64,000 bases of DNA from contig NZ_VCYH01000003.1 of the NCBI RefSeq assembly GCF_030464345.1, positions 248,001 through 312,000 of the forward strand, given 5' to 3'. A model generated the notes under the pieces. That model made no database searches. It was not told the origin of the DNA and worked only from the letters and a program-made list of their open reading frames with translations. Of the stretch, positions 523 to 52,129 are shown piece after piece. Within the stretch, counting starts at the first letter, position 1. Every line of letters begins with the position of its first letter. This stretch comes from Methanoculleus frigidifontis. Its GTDB lineage: Archaea; Halobacteriota; Methanomicrobia; Methanomicrobiales; Methanoculleaceae. A program made the position numbers and the translations under genes.

Positions 523-1058
523 TGCTCTCGGTATGCAGTATGCCGCTCTTCTGCTGAAAAGGTGTTGTTTTGATCGGGCACGGCCGGTTCCTGACCGCCG
601 TACCCTGCGTTCATTTAACATGAAAGAGCCCCTCTGCTTTCGGTTCTTGCACGTGCCCGCAGAACCGGTCACGAAGAGCGGTATGAAATGCCGGATCCGT
701 GAATACGGTTTTTCGTTGGATTACCGCTCCCCCTGCTGCATTTCTCGGCACGCTTTCACAAGTGTCGCGGTCGGGTTCCAGAGCACCGCAAGGAATACTC
801 ATCAATGAGCAGTGTCCGTCCCGGACTATCGCATCGGGGTGGGGACAGGGGAGGGGGCCCGGCCCCTTCCCCTGGTACCCCTCCCCCATGAAGATACTCC
901 CCACGGTACGGTTGTCAGTGAAAGTGTTGCAGAGAGCAGACCTCGTAATGTTGTACAATGTGCTGAGCCCTTACTCAGTGAGCGTTTGATAGAGAGTCCC
1001 TGCAGCCACCGCCACGGGCGACCCGCCTGCAGCCCCGAAAAAAAGGAGTATCCGGTAT
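523..1058. other. 536-base intergenic region with a GC-rich repeat-like palindrome
   Basis: No convincing gene is present; the open frames here are shadows or extensions. Around 835-891 there is a run of G-rich then C-rich sequence (GGGGACAGGGGAGGGG then CCCCTTCCCC and CCCTCCCCC) that resembles part of the intergenic repeats near 24.7-25.0 kb and 51.7 kb. The part next to thiC holds its probable terminator. Confidence 0.5.
1038..1044 (-). terminator. T-run terminator downstream of thiC
   Basis: A run of seven A on the plus strand reads as T7 on the minus strand about 15 bases after the thiC stop. Archaeal intrinsic termination commonly needs only a T-run. No strong stem precedes it. Confidence 0.45.
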
Positions 1059-23511: not shown

Positions 23512-24252
23512 TTATGCATTGCTGAGCAGGAAGATCGCGGCGAGGATGATCGGCTGATGGAGGAAGTAGATGAAGAGGGAGTGGCGCCCCAGGAACGCGA
23601 GCGGCCGGGCTGCTCCGGGCTCCGCAATCTTCACCGAAAATCCTCTGGTGCCTTCGGGGTAGAACTTCTTGCCGAAGTAGATCCCGAAGAGGACGAGCCC
23701 GAACCAGGGGAGGAGCGGGACGTAGTCGAGGCTGGTGAACGACGATGGGTGGATGCCGAGCCAGAGCAGCGGCCAGGGGCCGGTGATGGCGTTCGTGACG
23801 TAGCCCGCGAAAAGAGCCGCGACGCCGAAGAGAAGGTTGGCCTCCTCGAAGCGTATGAAGAACGGGGCGATGATGACGGCGATCCCGATGAAGTGGAGGA
23901 TGCCGAAGACGATGTAGCCCGACGGCAGGAAGAGGTAGGTCGCGGCGGTGACGACGAGGCCGTAGCCGAAGATGGTTGCGCCCCTTTTCAGATATTTCCT
24001 GCGGAGAGCCTGCGCATCAAGCCGCCTGCTCGAGCGTGCGTAGCTGATCGTCAGCGAGAGGCCGACAAGAAAGATGAACGTGGATGCCGTGGCGTATGCC
24101 AGCATCCGCCAGAACCCGGTCGCAACGGTGACCGTGACGATGCCGAAGTAATTGAGGTCGAAGACGGCGTGGAAGAGGATCATCGTGACGACGGCGATGC
24201 CCCGGGCGGCATCGATCTCCCAGTAGCGGCCGGAGATGGCCGTCCCCGTCAT
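23512..24252 (-). CDS. multi-pass membrane protein, heparan-alpha-glucosaminide N-acetyltransferase-like (DUF1624 type)
   Basis: The 246-residue protein has about eight hydrophobic helices. Its N-terminus (YWEIDAARGIAVVTMILFHA) is the hallmark of the DUF1624/HGSNAT catalytic domain: an Arg-Gly in the first helix and a conserved His (FHAVFDLNYFG) in the motif. Further helices hold FGILHFIGIAVIIAP and the C-terminal GRHSLFIYFLHQPI. Such enzymes transfer acetyl groups to glycans across a membrane; the substrate here is unknown. The ATG at 24252 is chosen because the longer frame has no protein-like content and runs into the small zinc-ribbon gene, which lies 13 bases upstream. Confidence 0.7.
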   Translation of the reverse strand: MTGTAISGRYWEIDAARGIAVVTMILFHAVFDLNYFGIVTVTVATGFWRMLAYATASTFIFLVGLSLTISYARSSRRLDAQALRRKYLKRGATIFGYGLVVTAATYLFLPSGYIVFGILHFIGIAVIIAPFFIRFEEANLLFGVAALFAGYVTNAITGPWPLLWLGIHPSSFTSLDYVPLLPWFGLVLFGIYFGKKFYPEGTRGFSVKIAEPGAARPLAFLGRHSLFIYFLHQPIILAAIFLLSNA

Positions 24253-24265
24253 GGGCTCCACAGCA

Positions 24266-24424
24266 TCAGAAGGCGGCACGCTGCACGTCCACTCCGCAGA
24301 GCGGGCAGGTCGTAAGCTCCTCGATCTCCTGCATCTGTTCTTCCGTCGGCTGGTTGTAGATCCGGGAAAAGCCGCAGTGCCTGCTGCACTCAAGAACAAT
24401 AAAGAGACTGCATATCCTGCCCAT
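24266..24424 (-). CDS. 52-residue zinc-ribbon-like protein
   Basis: A short open frame from the ATG at 24424 to TGA at 24266 encodes 52 residues. Two Cys pairs are visible: C13 and C17 (ECSRHCGF) and C40 and C43 (TTCPLCG), joined by an acidic helix (EEQMQEIEEL). This looks like a small zinc ribbon. An additional Cys5 lies near the start. It precedes the membrane acyltransferase-like gene by 13 bases on the same strand, so they may be co-expressed. The family is not recognised. Evidence for its reality is the paired cysteines, tight spacing and a GAGATGAT sequence upstream. Confidence 0.55.
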   Translation of the reverse strand: MGRICSLFIVLECSRHCGFSRIYNQPTEEQMQEIEELTTCPLCGVDVQRAAF

Positions 24425-25280
24425 GGTCGGTCACATCATCTCGTCGTGGTCTTCTTTTTCAGTATGGTGCCCGCAGCTCATAAGTATATCACCGCTCCCG
24501 TACACGTGATCGGAAAAGTGGCCGGCAAGATGATCGCCTGCGCACGGATCGAAGAGATGCCGGTAGTGCCCTCCGAAACAACTGATACTCCCTTTGTTGC
24601 GATCGCGTCCGGGTGTTCCCGATTGATTGCACCCCGGGGCACGGCTTTCCATTGGGTATCGCCATGACTGCCCCCGCCCCCCGGGGCGGGGGAGGTATGC
24701 GGATCTTTGCGTAAGACAGGGGAGGGGGGAAGCCCCCATACACGCTACCGTGCCCTCTGGGTGCACCGAAATTCCTGGTGCTATCGGCGGGGTCTAGGCA
24801 ATAGATGAGGTTCCATCTCTTGCTCCGGATGACCGCAATCCGGGGTATTCGGGGGCACGGCTTTCCCCTGGGTATCGCCATGACTGCCCCCGCCCCTTGA
24901 GGGGCGGGGGAGGAGGCCGGAGGCCGGGTGGGGTGGGGTTGACAATGTCTGGGGATCTTCGCGGGAGACAGGGGAGGGGAAAACCCCTCCCCGTCAGCCC
25001 CACCCCCATGGTAATAGCCACCACGGTTCACGGCATGCGGGCATGCGTGAGAAAAAAGGCCGAACTTCGGGAACCGGCCTGATCAGGCACCAATCTCGTC
25101 CGGGAAGAATGACAGCCGGAAGAGAGCTTCACCAAAGCCCGATCATGGAAATCTTCTCCCCATGGTATTTTCTCATGAACGCGGGTTGGTGCGCACCATA
25201 ATTCGGTCGGATTCTCTGAGATCACGTATCAGGTATATGCTGGAGCACTACCGAGATGCCGCAGCGGTTCTCGTTTCCCC
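24425..25280. repeat. 856-base intergenic region holding a cluster of GC-rich repeats
   Basis: No credible gene is present. From about 24630 to 25050 the region is a mosaic of repeat words. A block with CACGGCTTTCC and GGGTATCGCCATGACTGCCC occurs twice (about 24637-24705 and 24856-24915). A block with GACAGGGGAGGGG and its C-rich complement also occurs twice (about 24717-24736 and 24968-24991). The stretch 24744-24906 is copied without gaps at 51514-51676, with about seven differences in 163 bases. CCACGGTTCACGGCATG near 25020-25036 is shared with about 51750-51766. These look like members of a non-coding repeat family with strong hairpins. Confidence 0.7.
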
Positions 25281-25973
25281 TCACCGCAGCAGCCCGAGGT
25301 GGGCGAGGAGGTCCGAGAACCGCTGCAGGACATAGTCGGCCCCGTGCTCGCCCGAGGTGTCGGTCCTCCAGTCGCCGTAGGCGGCAAACGCCGTCGCCAT
25401 CCCGAGCCTGCGTCCGCCGGCGATATCGCGTGCCGGACTGTCGCCAACTATCATCGCCGACCGGGGCGATGCGCCGAACTCCCGGAGGATGTAGAGGAAC
25501 GAGTCAGGTTCGGGCTTTCGCTTCCCGGAGACGTCGGGGGTCACGACCAGTTCGAAGTGGTCGATGAGCCCGGTGCGGGCCAGCCGCTTTTCCGCCTGGG
25601 AGAGCTCCGCATCCGTCGCGACGGCGAGCCGCAGCCCGGCATCGCGGAGGCGGCGGAGCGTCGCATCGACCTCCGGGTAGGGCTCAAGACCCCGGAGTTT
25701 CGCGTCTTCGTAGATGCGGCAGCATGCCCCGAAGGTCTCTGGACAGCAGATGCCGATCGTGTTTAGGTAGTCGCGGATGTTGTCGTGGTGCTCGAACCCA
25801 TGGACGCCCCGGAGGAAGTAGCGGAAGCACTCTTCCGCATCCCCGGCGCCGGCATACTCGACGATTCCCCGGCACGCCTCCCGTTTTGCCGTCACAAAAT
25901 CGAAGAGGGTGTTGTCCATATCGCAGATCACGGTGGTTATGGGGTTGCTGGCTGCGTGGCAATGTGGTATCAT
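25281..25973 (-). CDS. HAD-superfamily hydrolase (phosphatase-like)
   Basis: The 230-residue protein has the HAD catalytic motif DMDNTLFDF (nucleophile Asp18, Asp20), an alpha-helical cap (residues about 25-95), motif II AVATDAELS, the lysine of GKRKPEPDSF and the acidic motif IVGDSPARDI. This fits a HAD phosphatase of the pyrimidine nucleotidase or phosphoglycolate phosphatase-like group; the substrate is not predictable. I chose the ATG at 25973, because upstream residues of the long frame are not conserved-looking. It is flanked by long intergenic regions on both sides. Confidence 0.85.
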   Translation of the reverse strand: MIPHCHAASNPITTVICDMDNTLFDFVTAKREACRGIVEYAGAGDAEECFRYFLRGVHGFEHHDNIRDYLNTIGICCPETFGACCRIYEDAKLRGLEPYPEVDATLRRLRDAGLRLAVATDAELSQAEKRLARTGLIDHFELVVTPDVSGKRKPEPDSFLYILREFGASPRSAMIVGDSPARDIAGGRRLGMATAFAAYGDWRTDTSGEHGADYVLQRFSDLLAHLGLLR

Positions 25974-26028
25974 ATGGTTGCTACCCTGGTCTCCATAGCC
26001 CTTATCGCGCGAAACGTATGTAACTATC

Positions 26029-26148
26029 TCATCGGTGTACATGGTATACCGAGCCCGGGGAAGATCCGCACTGCGGCAGGTGTGCCTCGCAGATGTACCG
26101 GGCACATGTCCGTCGGCAGTTGAACGGCAAGCGGTCGTGGGTAGCCAT
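26029..26148 (-). pseudogene. possible remnant of a small zinc-finger gene
   Basis: A 39-codon frame encodes LPFNCRRTCARYICEAHLPQ followed by Cys. The order of Cys and His residues loosely recalls archaeal AN1-type zinc fingers (Pro-Tyr/Phe, paired Cys, Tyr-Cys, His, Pro), but the spacing is wrong and no ribosome binding site is seen. It may be a decayed gene, a divergent small protein, or chance. Confidence 0.2.
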
Positions 26149-26484: not shown

Positions 26485-29400
26485 ATGTTGGCACGCCTCC
26501 CTTTGTTCTCTATAGGTCGCACGATGTGCTGTTTTTGCACCAATACGTCGCCTTTTCGGCTTATTCTTCTTGGAGCGCTCCTCTTTGGAATGTGTCTGGT
26601 ACTGCCGGCCGCCGCGTACAGCGGCGGCACCGGCACGGTAGGCGATCCCTACCGGATCGGCACACGGGATGATGTCATCGCTCTCGGAGCCGATTCCGCA
26701 CACTGGGACAACCATTTCATCGTAACGAATGACATTTCCCTCGCTGCCGGAAGCCCGACGGAGACGATCGGGAATGCAAGCACGAAATTCAACGGCACTT
26801 TCGACGGCCAGGGGTATACCATCAGCGATTTTGTGATGGATAAGAGCGGTTCCGATTATATCGGCTTCTTTGGCCATCTTGGTTCAGGTGCGGAGATTAC
26901 GAATCTCCGGATCACGGCTGGCGATGCCGGCGTATCCGGACAGAATTATGTAGGTGTCCTTGCTGGTCGCAACAATGGTGGTACCATCACAGACTGCTCT
27001 GCAACCGGGAGGGTCACTGCCAGTTCGGAAGCCGGTGGTCTTGTTGGGTATAATAACCATGGCACCATCACGAGCTGTTCTGCAACGGGGAGTGCCGCTG
27101 CCACCATGTGGTATGCCGGCGGTCTTGTCGGTCTGAACTATAAGGGTACCATCACGAGCTGTTACGCAACCGGGAACGCCGCTGCCGGGAGTGGTTACGC
27201 CGGTGGTCTTGTTGGCGTCAGCGATGGGGGCACCATCACGGGCTGTTATGCAACCGGGAATGCCACTGCCGGGAGTTATGCCGGTGGTCTTGTTGGAGCC
27301 AGTGCCGGCACCATCACGGGCTGCTATGCCTCCGGGAGCGGCACTGCCGGGATTGGTTATGCCGGGGGTCTTGTTGGTGTGAATACGGGCACCATCACCA
27401 ACTGTTATCGGCACTATACCGGCGGCGATTGTCTTGACGGCACCTATGTTTCCGATCGCACGAAGTTCAGGGACATCGCGTTCCTCACCGGCACGACACC
27501 CGGTGACGGTCTGAACTGGTCTCACGATATCATCAGCACCGATGCAGACCCGTCAAAGGTCTGGCGGGTGTTTCCCTACAAGGGCCGGTATCCGATCTTC
27601 CAGTGGCAGTCGTTTGGTACCGGTACGATTACGGTAAATTCGGTTCCGGCAGGTGCTGACGTCTCCTTCAATGGCGTTGCCACCGGGAGGATGACCAACA
27701 CAACGGTGTCTGATCTGCCGGAAGGCGAATACAATATCACCGCTGAACATGGAGGGCCCGCCTTCTCACCGGCCTTTTCGGTGGTACTGCTTGCGGCGGA
27801 CGAAACAAAAACCGTGGAGTTTACCCTGTACAGCGGCGGAAGCGGTACGCCGGATGACCCGTACCGGATCAGCACACGGGATGATGTCATCTCCCTCGGA
27901 GCCGATTCCGCAAACTGGGACAAACACTTCATTGTAACCAATGACATCTCCCTCGCTGCCGGAAGCCCGACGGAGACGATCGGGAACAAAAGCAGTGCGG
28001 AGTATTACTTCACCGGCACGTTCGACGGCCAGGGGTATACCATCAGCGATTTTGTGATGGATAAGAGGTATTCTTATTGTGTCGGCTTCTTTGGCTATCT
28101 TGGTTCAGGCGCGGAGATCAGGAATCTCCAGATCGCGACTGGTGATGCCGGCGTCATTGGAGATGAACATGTAGGTATCCTTGCTGGTTACAACGATGGG
28201 GGCACCATCACGAACTGTTCTGCAACCGGGAGCGTCACTGCCGACGTGAATGCCGGAGGTCTTGTTGGTTACAGCGATAGGGGCACCATCACGAACTGTT
28301 CCGCAACCGGGAGTGCCACTGCTGATGATTATGCCGGCGGTCTTGTCGGACGTAATCTCTATGGCACCATCACGAGCTGCTCTGCAACCGGGAGTGCCAC
28401 TGCTGATGACAATTATGCCGGCGGTCTTGTTGGGTGTTTCTATTATGGCACCATCACAAACAGTTCTGCAACCGGGAGTGCCACTGCCTGGAGTTATGCC
28501 GGTGGTCTTGTTGGATGCGGCGCCGGCACCATCACAAACTGCTCTGCAACCGGGAGTGCCACTGCCCGGAATAATTATGCCGGCGGTCTTTTGGGATACA
28601 CTGATATTACCAGCACCATCACGAGCTGCTCTGCAACCGGAAGTGCCACTGCCACCATGTGGTATGCTGGCGGTCTTGTTGGGAGAAACCGTTATGGCAC
28701 CATCACGAGCTGCTATGCAATCGGGACTGTCACTGCCTGGGAGTATGCCGGCGGTCTTGTTGGTTACGACTATGATGGCACCATCACGGGCAGCTATGCA
28801 ACCGGGAGTGTCACTGCCCGGAATAATTATGCCGGCGGTCTTGTTGGACAAGATTATGGCACTATAACGAACTGTTATGCAACGGGGAATGCCACTGGCG
28901 GTAATTATACCGGTGGTCTTGTCGGTTACAACGATGGGGGCACCATCACCAACTGTTATCGGCACTATGCCGGCGGCGATTGTCTTGACGGCACGCACGT
29001 CCCCGATCGTACGAAGTTTGGGGACATTGCTTTCCTCACCTGCGATACACCCGGTGACGGTCTGAACTGGTCTCACGATATCATCAGCACCGATGCAGAT
29101 TCAGCAAAGGTCTGGCGGGTGTTTCCCTACAAGAGCCGGTATCCGATCTTCCAGTGGCAGTCGTTTGGTACCGGTACGATTACCGTAAACTCGGTTCCGG
29201 CAGGCGCGGACGTTTCCTTTAATGGCGTTGCCACCGGGAGGACGACCAACACAACGGTGTCTGACCTGCCGGAAGGCGAATACAATATCACCGTTGAACG
29301 TGGCGACGTCATCTTCTCATCGGCCTTTTCAGTGGTACTCCTTGCGGCGGATGGAACGGAAACCGTGGAGTTTATCCGACTATACAGCGGTGGAAGCGGT

Positions 29401-31917
29401 ACGCCGGATGACCCGTACCGGATCAGCACTCGGGGCGATGTCATCTATCTCTCCATCGATTCCGTACACTGGGAGAACCATTTCATCGTAACGAGCGACA
29501 TCTCCCTCGCTGCCGGAAGCCCGACAGAGACGATCGGGAACAAAAGCAGTGCGGAGTATTATTTCAACGGCACTTTTGATGGCCAGGGGCATACAATCAG
29601 CGATTTTGTGATGGATAAGGGCAGCTCGAATTATATCGGTTTGTTTGGCTGTCTCGGTTCAGGTGCGGAGATCAGGGATCTCAGGATCGCGGCAGGCGAT
29701 GCCGGCGTCACTGGAGCTGAGTACGTAGGCATCCTTGCCGGTCACAACGATGGGGGCACCATCACAGACTGTTCTGCAACCGGGAGCGTCACTGCCGACG
29801 TGAGTGCCGGTGTCCTTGCTGGTAGCAACTATTATCATGGCACTATCACGAGCTGCTCTGCAACCGGGAGTGTCACTGCCGGGAATTATGCCGGCGGTCT
29901 TGTTGGGAGAAACATGGGCACCATCACGAGCTGTTCTGCAACCGGGAGTGCCACTGCCGGCAACTATACCGGTGGTCTTGCTGGAAGCAGCACTGGCACC
30001 ATCACGAGCTGTTCTGCAACCGGGAATGCCACTGCCGGGAGCAATTATGCCGGCGGTCTTGTCGGTTACAGCTATGATGGCACCATCACGAGCTGCTCTG
30101 CAACCGGGAGTGCCACTGCCGGGAGCAATTATGCCGGCGGTCTTGCTGGTAATAGCCTTGGCACCATAACAAACTGTTATGCAACCGGGAATGCCACTGC
30201 CGGTAACTGTGCCGGCGGTCTTGCTGGATATAGCGAGCGCACCATCACGCGCTGCTATGCAACCGGGAGTGCCGCTGCCGGGAATTATGCCGGCGGTCTT
30301 GTTGGTAGGAACTGGGCCACCATAACAAATTGTTATGCAACCGGGAGTGCCGCTGCCAGTTCGGATGCCGGCGGTCTTGTTGGAGATAACGGGCGCACCA
30401 TCACTAACTGTTATCGGCACTATACCGGCGGCGATTGTCTTGACGGCACCTATGTTTCCGATCGTACGCAGTTTGGGGACATTGCGTTCCTCACCGGCAC
30501 GACACCCGGTGACGGTCTGAACTGGTCTGCCGATAGTATCAGCACCGATGCAGACCCGTCAAAGGTCTGGCGGGCGTTTCCCTACAAGGGCCGGTATCCG
30601 ATCTTCCAGTGGCAGTCGTTTGGTACCGGTACGATTACGGTAACCTCGGTTCCGGCAGGTGCTGACGTTTCCCTCAATGGCGTTGCCACCGGGAGGACGA
30701 CCAACACAACGGTGTCCGATCTGCCGGAAGGCGAATACAACGTCACGGTAGAGAAAGCCGGGTATCAGCCGGCTCCGGTCCTGACCGTTCAGGTCAACCC
30801 GAACGAGACCGCGGAGGCCGCGTTCACCCTCACCCCGGTGGGAACCGCTCCGGTCGCGAACTTCACCGCCAATGTCACCGCAGGAATGAGGCCGCTCACC
30901 GTGCAGTTCGCCGACACCTCCACCGGCGAGCCGACCTTCTGGTCGTGGTCGTTCGGCGACGGCGAGACCTCCTCCGAGCAGAACCCGGTCCACACCTACA
31001 CCGCGGCCGGCGCCTACACGGTGAACCTGACGGTGACGAACGCCGCCGGCACCGATGCAACGTCCGTGCCGGGGTATATCACCGTCGAACGCGGGACGGT
31101 CAGCATCACGGCTCCGGGAGGCGGCAGTGCGACCATCGGTGATGCGATCACTCTCACCGGGACGAACACCGACAGCACGACAACCTACCTCTTCCTGACC
31201 GGGCCCGGGCTGCCGCTGGCGGGTGCCAACCTCATGAACCTCTCGATGCCCGTGGTGAGCGGCAGCGCCGCGACGTTCACCGTCGCCGCCGTCGCGGTCG
31301 ACGACACCTGGGAGCATTGCTGGGACACCGGGGCGGTCTGGGGCGGCGCCCTGCAGGAAGGCGTGTATACCGTCTACGCCGTCTCGGAACCGAAATCACG
31401 GACTGACCTTGCCGGCATCCCGCATGCAACCGTCGCCATACGGTTCGCCGTTCCCGGGCAGTCGAACGCATCCTTCGTCGCGGACGTGACGGGCGGCCCT
31501 GCCCCGCTCACGGTGCAGTTCACCGACACCTCGTCGATCAGCGCGACCTCCTGGTCATGGACGTTCGGCGACGGCGGCACTTCGACCGCACAGAATCCGG
31601 TGCACACCTACGCGGCAGCGGGTAACTACACTGTCACGCTCGCGCTCAGCGGCGGCGGCGAGACCTGCACGCGGTCTGCATACATCAAGGTCACGCCGGT
31701 CCTCTTCGGCGACGCGAACGGCGACGGTGCGGTCAACCAGGCCGACACCCTGCGGGTGCTCAAAGAGGTCGTCGGCCTTGAGACAAAACCGGCGAGCGGC
31801 ACCGAACAGTTCCAAAAGACCGACGTCCACAGAAACGGGATCATCGATGTCAGCGACGCCCTCTTCATCGCCCAGTACAACGTCGGACTGCGGGACGTCT
31901 GGTTCGTGATTGCTTGA
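26485..31917 (+). CDS. 1810-residue secreted adhesin-like protein: GLUG repeats, PEGA, PKD and dockerin
   Basis: The protein has a signal peptide (about residues 1-44, ending LPAAAYS). Three large modules follow, beginning near residues 45, 448 and 965. Each opens with SGG.GT.DDPYRI and a DISLAAGSPTETIGN strand. A run of 24-27-residue GLUG-type repeats follows (CSATGSATA, YAGGLVG, GTIT), then YRHYTGGDCLDGTYV, FPYKGRYPIFQWQ, and a PEGA domain (SVPAGADVSFNG). After the third PEGA come a PKD domain (about 1457-1537, FWSWSFGDG), an Ig-like segment, a second PKD (about 1660-1737, SWSWTFGDG), and a type I dockerin (about 1741-1805) with calcium loops DANGDGAVNQAD and DVHRNGIIDVSD. It is probably a cell-surface or secreted adhesive protein. 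An alternative start lies at 26524. Confidence 0.85.
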   Translation: MLARLPLFSIGRTMCCFCTNTSPFRLILLGALLFGMCLVLPAAAYSGGTGTVGDPYRIGTRDDVIALGADSAHWDNHFIVTNDISLAAGSPTETIGNASTKFNGTFDGQGYTISDFVMDKSGSDYIGFFGHLGSGAEITNLRITAGDAGVSGQNYVGVLAGRNNGGTITDCSATGRVTASSEAGGLVGYNNHGTITSCSATGSAAATMWYAGGLVGLNYKGTITSCYATGNAAAGSGYAGGLVGVSDGGTITGCYATGNATAGSYAGGLVGASAGTITGCYASGSGTAGIGYAGGLVGVNTGTITNCYRHYTGGDCLDGTYVSDRTKFRDIAFLTGTTPGDGLNWSHDIISTDADPSKVWRVFPYKGRYPIFQWQSFGTGTITVNSVPAGADVSFNGVATGRMTNTTVSDLPEGEYNITAEHGGPAFSPAFSVVLLAADETKTVEFTLYSGGSGTPDDPYRISTRDDVISLGADSANWDKHFIVTNDISLAAGSPTETIGNKSSAEYYFTGTFDGQGYTISDFVMDKRYSYCVGFFGYLGSGAEIRNLQIATGDAGVIGDEHVGILAGYNDGGTITNCSATGSVTADVNAGGLVGYSDRGTITNCSATGSATADDYAGGLVGRNLYGTITSCSATGSATADDNYAGGLVGCFYYGTITNSSATGSATAWSYAGGLVGCGAGTITNCSATGSATARNNYAGGLLGYTDITSTITSCSATGSATATMWYAGGLVGRNRYGTITSCYAIGTVTAWEYAGGLVGYDYDGTITGSYATGSVTARNNYAGGLVGQDYGTITNCYATGNATGGNYTGGLVGYNDGGTITNCYRHYAGGDCLDGTHVPDRTKFGDIAFLTCDTPGDGLNWSHDIISTDADSAKVWRVFPYKSRYPIFQWQSFGTGTITVNSVPAGADVSFNGVATGRTTNTTVSDLPEGEYNITVERGDVIFSSAFSVVLLAADGTETVEFIRLYSGGSGTPDDPYRISTRGDVIYLSIDSVHWENHFIVTSDISLAAGSPTETIGNKSSAEYYFNGTFDGQGHTISDFVMDKGSSNYIGLFGCLGSGAEIRDLRIAAGDAGVTGAEYVGILAGHNDGGTITDCSATGSVTADVSAGVLAGSNYYHGTITSCSATGSVTAGNYAGGLVGRNMGTITSCSATGSATAGNYTGGLAGSSTGTITSCSATGNATAGSNYAGGLVGYSYDGTITSCSATGSATAGSNYAGGLAGNSLGTITNCYATGNATAGNCAGGLAGYSERTITRCYATGSAAAGNYAGGLVGRNWATITNCYATGSAAASSDAGGLVGDNGRTITNCYRHYTGGDCLDGTYVSDRTQFGDIAFLTGTTPGDGLNWSADSISTDADPSKVWRAFPYKGRYPIFQWQSFGTGTITVTSVPAGADVSLNGVATGRTTNTTVSDLPEGEYNVTVEKAGYQPAPVLTVQVNPNETAEAAFTLTPVGTAPVANFTANVTAGMRPLTVQFADTSTGEPTFWSWSFGDGETSSEQNPVHTYTAAGAYTVNLTVTNAAGTDATSVPGYITVERGTVSITAPGGGSATIGDAITLTGTNTDSTTTYLFLTGPGLPLAGANLMNLSMPVVSGSAATFTVAAVAVDDTWEHCWDTGAVWGGALQEGVYTVYAVSEPKSRTDLAGIPHATVAIRFAVPGQSNASFVADVTGGPAPLTVQFTDTSSISATSWSWTFGDGGTSTAQNPVHTYAAAGNYTVTLALSGGGETCTRSAYIKVTPVLFGDANGDGAVNQADTLRVLKEVVGLETKPASGTEQFQKTDVHRNGIIDVSDALFIAQYNVGLRDVWFVIA

Positions 31918-51281: not shown

Positions 51282-52129
51282 ATCTTTTTTGAAGAGACCC
51301 CGTGAATCCGGGTGTGGGGGGGGCGTGCGAGTCCGCCCTGGGCAGATCACGAACGCGTCCCAGAAGTATTCGTGGATGGAAACGGTCGATCTGGATAGAC
51401 ACAGTCCTCTTGGCTCTCTCAAAAAAGGTGCAGCTGAGGCAGAACCTACAAGCACGATATTTCCGGGGGTATCGCGTGAGGGAAGGGTGCGGGAGGGGGC
51501 GAGCCCCATGAGCGCTACCGTGCCCTATGGGTGCACCGAAATTCCTGGTGCTATCGGCGGGGTTTGGGCACTTGATGAGGTTCCATCTCTTGCTCCGGAT
51601 GGCCGCAATCCGGGGTATTCGGGGGCACGGCTTTCCCCTGGGTATCGCCATGACTGCCCCCGCCCCTTGAGGGGCAGGGTTGATGCTGTCTGTGGATCTT
51701 TGCGGGAGACAGGGGAGGGGAAAACCCCTCCCCGGGGGGCGCTTAGCCGCCACGGTTCACGGCATGGGGAGACGCCCGGGAAAAAGGTCGTCCCCCGAAC
51801 AAGCCCGGTCCGGCACCAGCCCGGTCAGGGGAAGAACGCGGTATACGCTTGAATCCTCTTAGCTAAGGGTAGCGCTCATGGGGGTCTCCCCCTCCTGCCG
51901 GAGAATAGTGGGACGACCTCCGCATGTCGCAGGTCGGGCCTCTGATGCACCTGCTGTTCTCGCGGGAGATCGGTGGAGACGCTTCGATCCCTGATAGGGT
52001 GGCCGGTTTTTCCGCCACAACGGCCCGCGTTCGCCAACCGGCAGGGCTTCGCGATTTGCTGCAGAACCTCAAAAGCCGCTTTTCGGGCAGCGTACCTGCC
52101 TGGGTGCGCAGAAAAAAAAGGTTGGTGTA
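51282..52129. repeat. 848-base intergenic region with the second copy of the GC-rich repeat cluster
   Basis: No supported gene is seen. T6 at 51285-51290 ends the alaS unit. The stretch 51514-51676 is a gap-free near copy of 24744-24906. It is followed by a GACAGGGGAGGGGAAAACCC type hairpin block (about 51708-51735) and the CCACGGTTCACGGCATG word (about 51750-51766), in the same order as at 24.97-25.04 kb. The tail up to 52129 is ordinary sequence ending in the terminator of the PEGA gene. Confidence 0.7.
52112..52119 (-). terminator. T8 terminator of the PEGA surface protein gene
   Basis: Eight A on the plus strand read as T8 on the minus strand about ten bases after the stop at 52130. Confidence 0.5.

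Follow-up and report, generated by a model that had tools for sequence, protein, structure and literature searches.

Nested mini-transposons at hairpin repeats of a methanogen genome and the proposed mobilization of one family in trans by an IS4-like transposase

Genes and Repeats in the Window

The window analysed here is the whole stretch of 64,000 nucleotides found at G000:C3:248001-312000, where G000 is the draft genome of the organism itself (3,165,140 bases in 30 contigs). Two of its intergenic spacers carry related repeats. The first is delimited by the genes of an HGSNAT-type acyltransferase (23512-24399, minus strand) and of a HAD hydrolase (25281-26105, minus strand), while the second, at 51.5 kb, is flanked by genes for an HTH protein and a PEGA protein. 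The stretch 26485-31917 encodes an archaeal protein of 1810 aa that combines GLUG, PKD and PEGA repeats with a dockerin domain at its C-terminus.

An earlier note on this DNA had claimed that the stretch 24744-24906 recurs at 51514-51676 and, indeed, the two align without gaps over 163 bases with exactly 7 mismatches. The hairpin block GACAGGGGAGGGG and the sequence CCACGGTTCACGGCATG, said to follow in both places, are present downstream of both copies at unequal spacing, the 24-kb copy having an extra GGAGGCCGGAGGCCGGG... that is not found in the 51-kb copy. A shorter relative had also been placed at 835-891: this region has the same hairpin design (GGGGAGGGGGCCCGGCCCC...), but it is not a copy of the 163 bases, and it is not among the listed matches to the 172-base query described below. 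Finally, the repeat cluster boxed at 24620-25060 is real, but the box is too small, the true units being two larger elements that we name D and A (Table 1).

Table 1. Positions of the mini-transposons, their target sites and the associated repeats in the window
Feature	Position	Strand	Basis or detail
Hairpin repeat, unoccupied, of the type used by A as target	835-900	.	GGGGGCCCGGCCCC at 853-866
Left target duplication of D, GAGATGCC, perfect 8 bp	24554-24561	.	
Mini-transposon D, bounded by GGTAGTGCCCTC (left) and TGGAGCACTACC (right), length 691 bp in this copy and usually ~440-470	24562-25252	+	
Shared palindromic core B, left copy, from D	24636-24735	+	
D hairpin GGGGGGAAGCCCCC, landing site of the nested A	24724-24737	.	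A absent from other D copies, e.g. L065, L068
Nested A, left part (CATACACGCTACC...), in the D hairpin, right end missing	24737-24975	+	
Shared palindromic core B, second copy, start from A, end from D	24852-25055	+	
Right target duplication of D, GAGATGCC, perfect 8 bp	25253-25260	.	
Host palindromic repeat C, left half, interrupted by A	51427-51506	+	Joined flanks versus unoccupied copies
Left flanking hairpin GGGGGCGAGCCCC, target of A	51495-51507	.	
Complete mini-transposon A, 374 bp, CATGAGCGCTACC ... GGTAGCGCTCATG	51507-51880	+	
Right flanking hairpin GGGGGTCTCCCCC, loop unlike the left one, no clean duplication in this copy	51880-51892	.	
Host palindromic repeat C, right half	51892-51935	+	Joined flanks versus unoccupied copies

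Two Families of Mini-Transposons

A 172-base query gave at least 45 matches in G000 at E<=0.01, of which at least 31 span 113 bases or more, at least 12 are of about 60 bases and confined to query positions 109-172, and at least 2 are of 24 bases. The scenario of only two copies without ends, against which the count was to be checked, did not hold, since at least 31 long copies with defined ends were found. No match to this query was obtained by blastn among plasmids and phages. In addition, a pattern specific for A occurs in none of 84,980 species genomes, although this collection may lack records close to G000.

The length of A is 243-512 bp in the 23 copies, out of 31, in which both ends could be set; the other eight (L001, L008, L009, L014, L015, L016, L026 and L029) were set aside because an end is missing, decayed or displaced. 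Its ends read CATnnnCGCTAMC, where M is A or C, and its boundaries are sharp in oriented copies with flanks (CATATACGCTACC on the left and GGTAGCGCTAATG on the right, or sequences close to these). The pattern of terminal inverted repeats (TIRs) CATWNRCGCTAMC has 35 exact matches in G000, all of them at A copies, with 0 for the reversed-pattern control. Over the left 113 columns, pairwise identity averages 0.89 (range 0.80-0.97) among 21 aligned copies, that is, the 23 minus the two longest, L013 and L017.

Concerning D, 23 left ends were counted in G000 (27 rows, 4 of these being weak short matches). Of these, 22 were examined for target duplications and 20, which have both ends, were retained after dropping L016 and L181. 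A perfect 8-bp duplication flanks 8 of the 20, the window copy included, against a permutation mean of 0.38 and a maximum of 3. The terminal inverted repeats of D are GGTAGTGCCC / GGAGCACTACC, with GGTAGTGC/GCACTACC at the ends of the window copy, and the end motif can be written GGTAGTGCYC. A and D have the palindromic core B in common.

Non-autonomous mini-transposons, or MITEs, are an established kind of element, as stated in excerpts of PMC10969869. Like them, A and D are short, multicopy and intergenic, end in inverted repeats, are flanked by target duplications and lack a transposase gene; what sets them apart is that the target of A is mostly a GGGnnnnnCCC hairpin belonging to another repeat, and that both A and D carry such a target hairpin inside, which leads to nesting. 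As to the missing transposase gene, the single longish frame of A, which reads IPVAIGGVQAIDEVPSLAPDDRNPGYSG or close to it through most copies, might be taken for a live or decayed protein-coding fragment. The probability of this reading is practically negligible, as an alignment of 28 copies has 47 minor alleles at the first codon position, 61 at the second and 38 at the third: there is no third-position excess, and the repeat is non-coding, as the earlier note had held.

The mobility of A and D is evident from their ends, inverted repeats and copy number, from duplications above the permutation level, from empty sites and from nesting. On these grounds the proposal of a mobile non-autonomous element is well supported, whereas a second proposal, namely a structured RNA, is not. 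A family of structured non-coding RNAs under selection would be in keeping with the strong palindromes and with the intergenic location of both window copies; it is nonetheless very unlikely, as the covariation check revealed a double change in only 1 of 65 consensus pairs with an unfavourable covariation term (+1.4), 0 Rfam families exceed the gathering threshold in the window, the orthologous spacer of the sister species G001 has no copy, and some copies, such as L060 and L030, lack the inner hairpin.

Short GC-rich palindromes, such as the host repeats of type C and the one at 835-900, also recall REP/BIME-like sequences moved by a single-strand transposase of the RAYT/IS200 type. This explanation is highly improbable for A and D, since both end in inverted repeats and are flanked by staggered target duplications, features that are absent from REP/BIME elements and that the RAYT/IS200-type mechanism is not known to produce. 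A and D account for many of the nested GC-rich intergenic repeats met in G000.

The Nested Locus at 24.7 kb

Along the window D copy the order of parts is D-left, A-left, D-right, whereas in L066 it is D-left, A-right, D-right. These two composites correspond to the two products that would be expected if a nested A lost one end through recombination in B, and the A/D junction of the window copy is inferred to lie within the shared palindrome, near 24975-25000. A composite of the window type is also found at G000:C1:395832-396180 (L016), whose right end was not recognised. The sister species G001 retains the same two genes in synteny, but their aligned parts are only 130 bp apart, versus 850 bp in G000; the insertion is therefore lineage-specific in G000, or was lost in G001.

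A likely sequence of events can be proposed on this basis. Specifically, D would have entered the spacer between the acyltransferase-like and HAD-hydrolase genes, duplicating 8 bp; A would later have inserted into the hairpin inside D; and homologous recombination within the palindromic core shared by A and D would then have deleted the right end of A. The A copy at 51.5 kb is complete and lodged inside another hairpin repeat. The recombination that had been suggested at the outset hence stands in part, as two nested elements sharing an internal palindrome seem to have recombined, with a deletion, to give the 24-kb copy, but recombination alone does not account for the repeats. In fact, segmental duplication or gene conversion with no transposition at all, to which the recombinant composites (window, L016, L066) might lend some credit, is scarcely credible given that the copies lie in unrelated flanks, with target duplications and empty sites.

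Hairpins as Target Sites of A

A GGGn3-7CCC motif, whose background is 0.18% of window positions, lies at the left junction of 16 of the 23 A copies and at the right junction of 14. Near-perfect duplications of 11-13 bp are seen in five of the 23 (L006, L010, L020, L023 and L060), against a mean of 0.92 and a maximum of 4 when left and right flanks were permuted 1000 times. Target site duplication is in this way a feature of A, although 18 of the 23 copies are not clean: in these, the stems are mostly kept and the left and right loops differ, as at 51.5 kb, where the loops are CGAG and TCT. When the flanks of this copy are joined, they match unoccupied host repeats over 101-110 bases (L009 89%, L013 84%, L029 83%). 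Joined true flanks and mispaired flanks of A fold equally well (-30.1 vs -29.4 kcal/mol), with no site-specific palindrome signal, since the host repeats have similar arms.

A separate observation concerns the junctions of L024 (A) and of L100 and L111 (A2, see below), in which the stems are kept and the loops differ, one loop being approximately the reverse complement of the other; judged by eye, it is as if the hairpin loops were able to flip.

Related Elements in Other Genomes

Core B is present in 32 of the 61 genomes searched, corresponding to G000 plus 31 of the 32 members of g5, a large sister genus, while the first 69 bases of the 172-base query have no match outside G000 among the matches listed. 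We read g5 as Methanoculleus, because A2, a 258-bp cousin of A first seen in G011, recurs in named Methanoculleus genomes. The right end of A2 was found in 15 stretches, nine of them in Ca. Methanoculleus thermohydrogenotrophicum and Methanoculleus sp. UBA303; the other six belong to unrelated organisms and, with two of them inspected, we take them as chance.

A2 is a clean, textbook case of target duplication. Fourteen copies were tested, six from G011 and eight from the two named species, leaving out L122 (no left flank) and the second copy of L131. Perfect matches of 12-13 bp around GGG...CCC, counting an ambiguous end base, flank nine of the 14, against a permutation mean of 2.43 and a maximum of 7, and the duplication between CAT and ATG is of 11 bp. 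GGGn3-7CCC occurs at all 14 left junctions and at 13 of 14 right junctions. The TIR pattern has 35 matches in G011 (control 0), many of which belong to A3, a longer cousin that carries core B.

At L131 3479-3766 (Ca. Methanoculleus thermohydrogenotrophicum) two A2 copies lie in tandem with a single GC-rich hairpin, GGGGGGCCGCCCCC, between them, as if the second had landed in the duplication generated by the first. Moreover, L096 of G011 and L132 of Ca. Methanoculleus thermohydrogenotrophicum have flanks in common and nearly identical mismatched loops, so that the loop mismatch seems older than their split.

Two insertion sequences of G011, L115 and L116, were considered as autonomous partners, in view of the A2 ends at their borders, and rejected, as each has A2 on one side only, and on opposite sides. 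They are read as an unrelated insertion sequence, IS1634-like by appearance, whose insertion into an A2 was followed by recombination between its two copies. These 1.7-kb copies, located on G011:C1 near 1.37 and 2.54 Mb, are identical over 1722 bases and have exchanged flanks, each being bordered by one half of an A2, which suggests an inversion of more than 1 Mb between them.

Autonomous IS4-Like Elements with the Same Ends

The TIR pattern search, conducted on genomes other than G023-G036, pointed to G003 and G041. On contig C40 of G003 lies an element of 1409 bp end to end, bounded by TATAAGCGCTAAC and GTTAGCGCTAATG, with GGGGGACACCC on both sides and a transposase inside. A related element in G041 is bounded by similar sequences (CATAAGCGCCAAC, GTTAGCGCTTATG), and a third element, in G034 of genus g5, shows the end GTTAGCGCATATG adjoining GGGGCAAGCCCC. 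With this transposase as a query (P0001), relatives were found in only three of 61 genomes, namely G003, G041 and G034, and none in G000 or G011. Among plasmids, a tblastn search with P0001 returned 1042 records, all below 60% identity, and the sole annotated one of the 12 matches listed is an IS421-family IS4-like element (33%). Viral contigs gave no relative of the P0001-type transposase and no A2 left end, and no match to P0001 was obtained among solved structures.

Concerning its classification, the transposases of G003 and G041 score 160.2 (P0001) and 164.1 bits with the NCBIfam IS4 model NF033592, whose cut-off is 115, and P0001 also matches PF01609. The YREK motif, Y(2)R(3)E(6)K, was recognised by eye in P0001 as YRLRWQVELAFKRLK, and direct repeats of about one helix turn, a feature of IS4 elements, are seen as GGGGGACACCC in G003 and as the 11-13 bp hairpin duplications of A2. 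A single open frame free of frameshift is another such feature and is not observed here: all three copies switch frame at one conserved tract, TTTTTCCCCCTGGGGATA, of the form T5-8/C5 (L138 1150-2461, L149 and L145 for G003, G034 and G041, respectively), and the C-terminal part is conserved in the other frame in all three, with a run of N between in G034. A possibility is that the break reflects a programmed frameshift or transcript slippage, which would be unusual for IS4. As the absence of frameshift is listed as an IS4 hallmark in a section of PMC2266710, the element is called IS4-like and not a strict member of the family.

The DDE_Tnp_1 genes of G000 (18 matches) include none with A-type ends, and those of G011 (7 matches) no partner transposase with such ends. 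In G000, two similar matches with 480-aa frames, L076 and L077, were discarded as partners, because the CATAATCCCTAAT-like words that they carry are direct and not inverted, with no TIR pair. Elsewhere in the same genome, at G000:C7 ~173.4-176.8 kb (L079), an inverted pair of stretches reading RYADDFLVT or close, a reverse-transcriptase-like motif, flanks a DDE transposase fragment; these are possibly two reverse-transcriptase genes, of a group II intron or similar.

These findings make it likely that two non-autonomous DNA transposons (MITEs) are nested in the 24.7-kb region, and that A would be moved in trans by an IS4-like transposase. As neither G000 nor G011 yielded a transposase with such ends, the link in trans is drawn from the shared ends and target. 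No likeness to the autonomous elements was seen in the inner sequence of A. The missing partner, together with the subterminal sequence of A, which differs from that of the autonomous elements, would agree with A being moved by a different transposase, with ends and hairpin target shared by convergence or coincidence. We regard this as unlikely, since the ends, the arrangement of ends and target and the 11-bp duplication are common to A and A2 as well as to the G003 and G034 elements, and the background of the TIR pattern in other genomes is low (0-2 matches each). On the reading that we prefer, with mobilization by an IS4-like enzyme, A in G000 is probably a relic of past activity, or else its source was missed, given that no such transposase is seen in the draft.

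Comparison with Known Systems

IS231, an insertion sequence of the IS4 family, prefers GGGN5CCC as target, and A shares this preference. According to passages of PMC2266710, IS231 has CAT ends and direct repeats of 10-12 bp, while ISH8, first found in archaea, has CAT ends, repeats of 10 bp and no apparent target preference. CAT ends, repeats of about one helix turn and, in the partner transposase, the YREK motif are therefore likenesses to the IS231 and ISH8 subgroups as portrayed there (PMC2266710), whereas A and A2 have no transposase and a frame break is conserved in their proposed autonomous partners.

Insertion sequences that hit REP (repetitive extragenic) palindromes, e.g., ISRm22, ISPsy8 and ISPpu9, are reported in parts of PMC1525189 and resemble A in this choice of target; these are autonomous and bacterial, in contrast to A and D, which are non-autonomous and archaeal and hold the target also inside. 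Among the papers listed for Methanoculleus repeats and for archaeal or methanogen MITEs no account of A, D or A2 was found; the paper on M. bourgensis MAB1 names transposases in a figure legend, as far as its excerpts go (PMC5062929). In kind, A and D are ordinary MITEs; what is new is the family, the hairpin target and the presence of that target inside A and D.

A Model of Hairpin-Directed Transposition and Its Implications

In the mechanism that we propose, an IS4-like cut-and-paste transposase would bind the CATnnnCGCTAMC ends (M = A or C) and move A and A2 in trans. The enzyme would cut GGGnnnnnCCC at the tip of the hairpin with an 11-bp stagger, and the tip would be duplicated at each insertion, so that the target would survive; A and D would, moreover, supply such a hairpin themselves.

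A more speculative extension, which we put forward tentatively, is that the system recognises the tips of DNA hairpins (cruciforms) and not base sequence alone, and that the mini-elements carry their own landing pad. If so, each insertion would copy the tip to both sides and bring a further tip inside the element, nested or tandem arrays, such as A in D or A2 beside A2 in L131, could grow without exhausting their targets, and elements equipped with a landing pad of their own would stay out of genes.

One GC-rich repeat family would in this way be linked to a definite transposase class. Within the methanogen family to which Methanoculleus belongs, these elements give a simple and testable example of hairpin repeats being both used and multiplied as landing sites. 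If the proposed link holds, A2 and the IS4-like transposase would offer a handle for a small transposition assay with hairpin preference.
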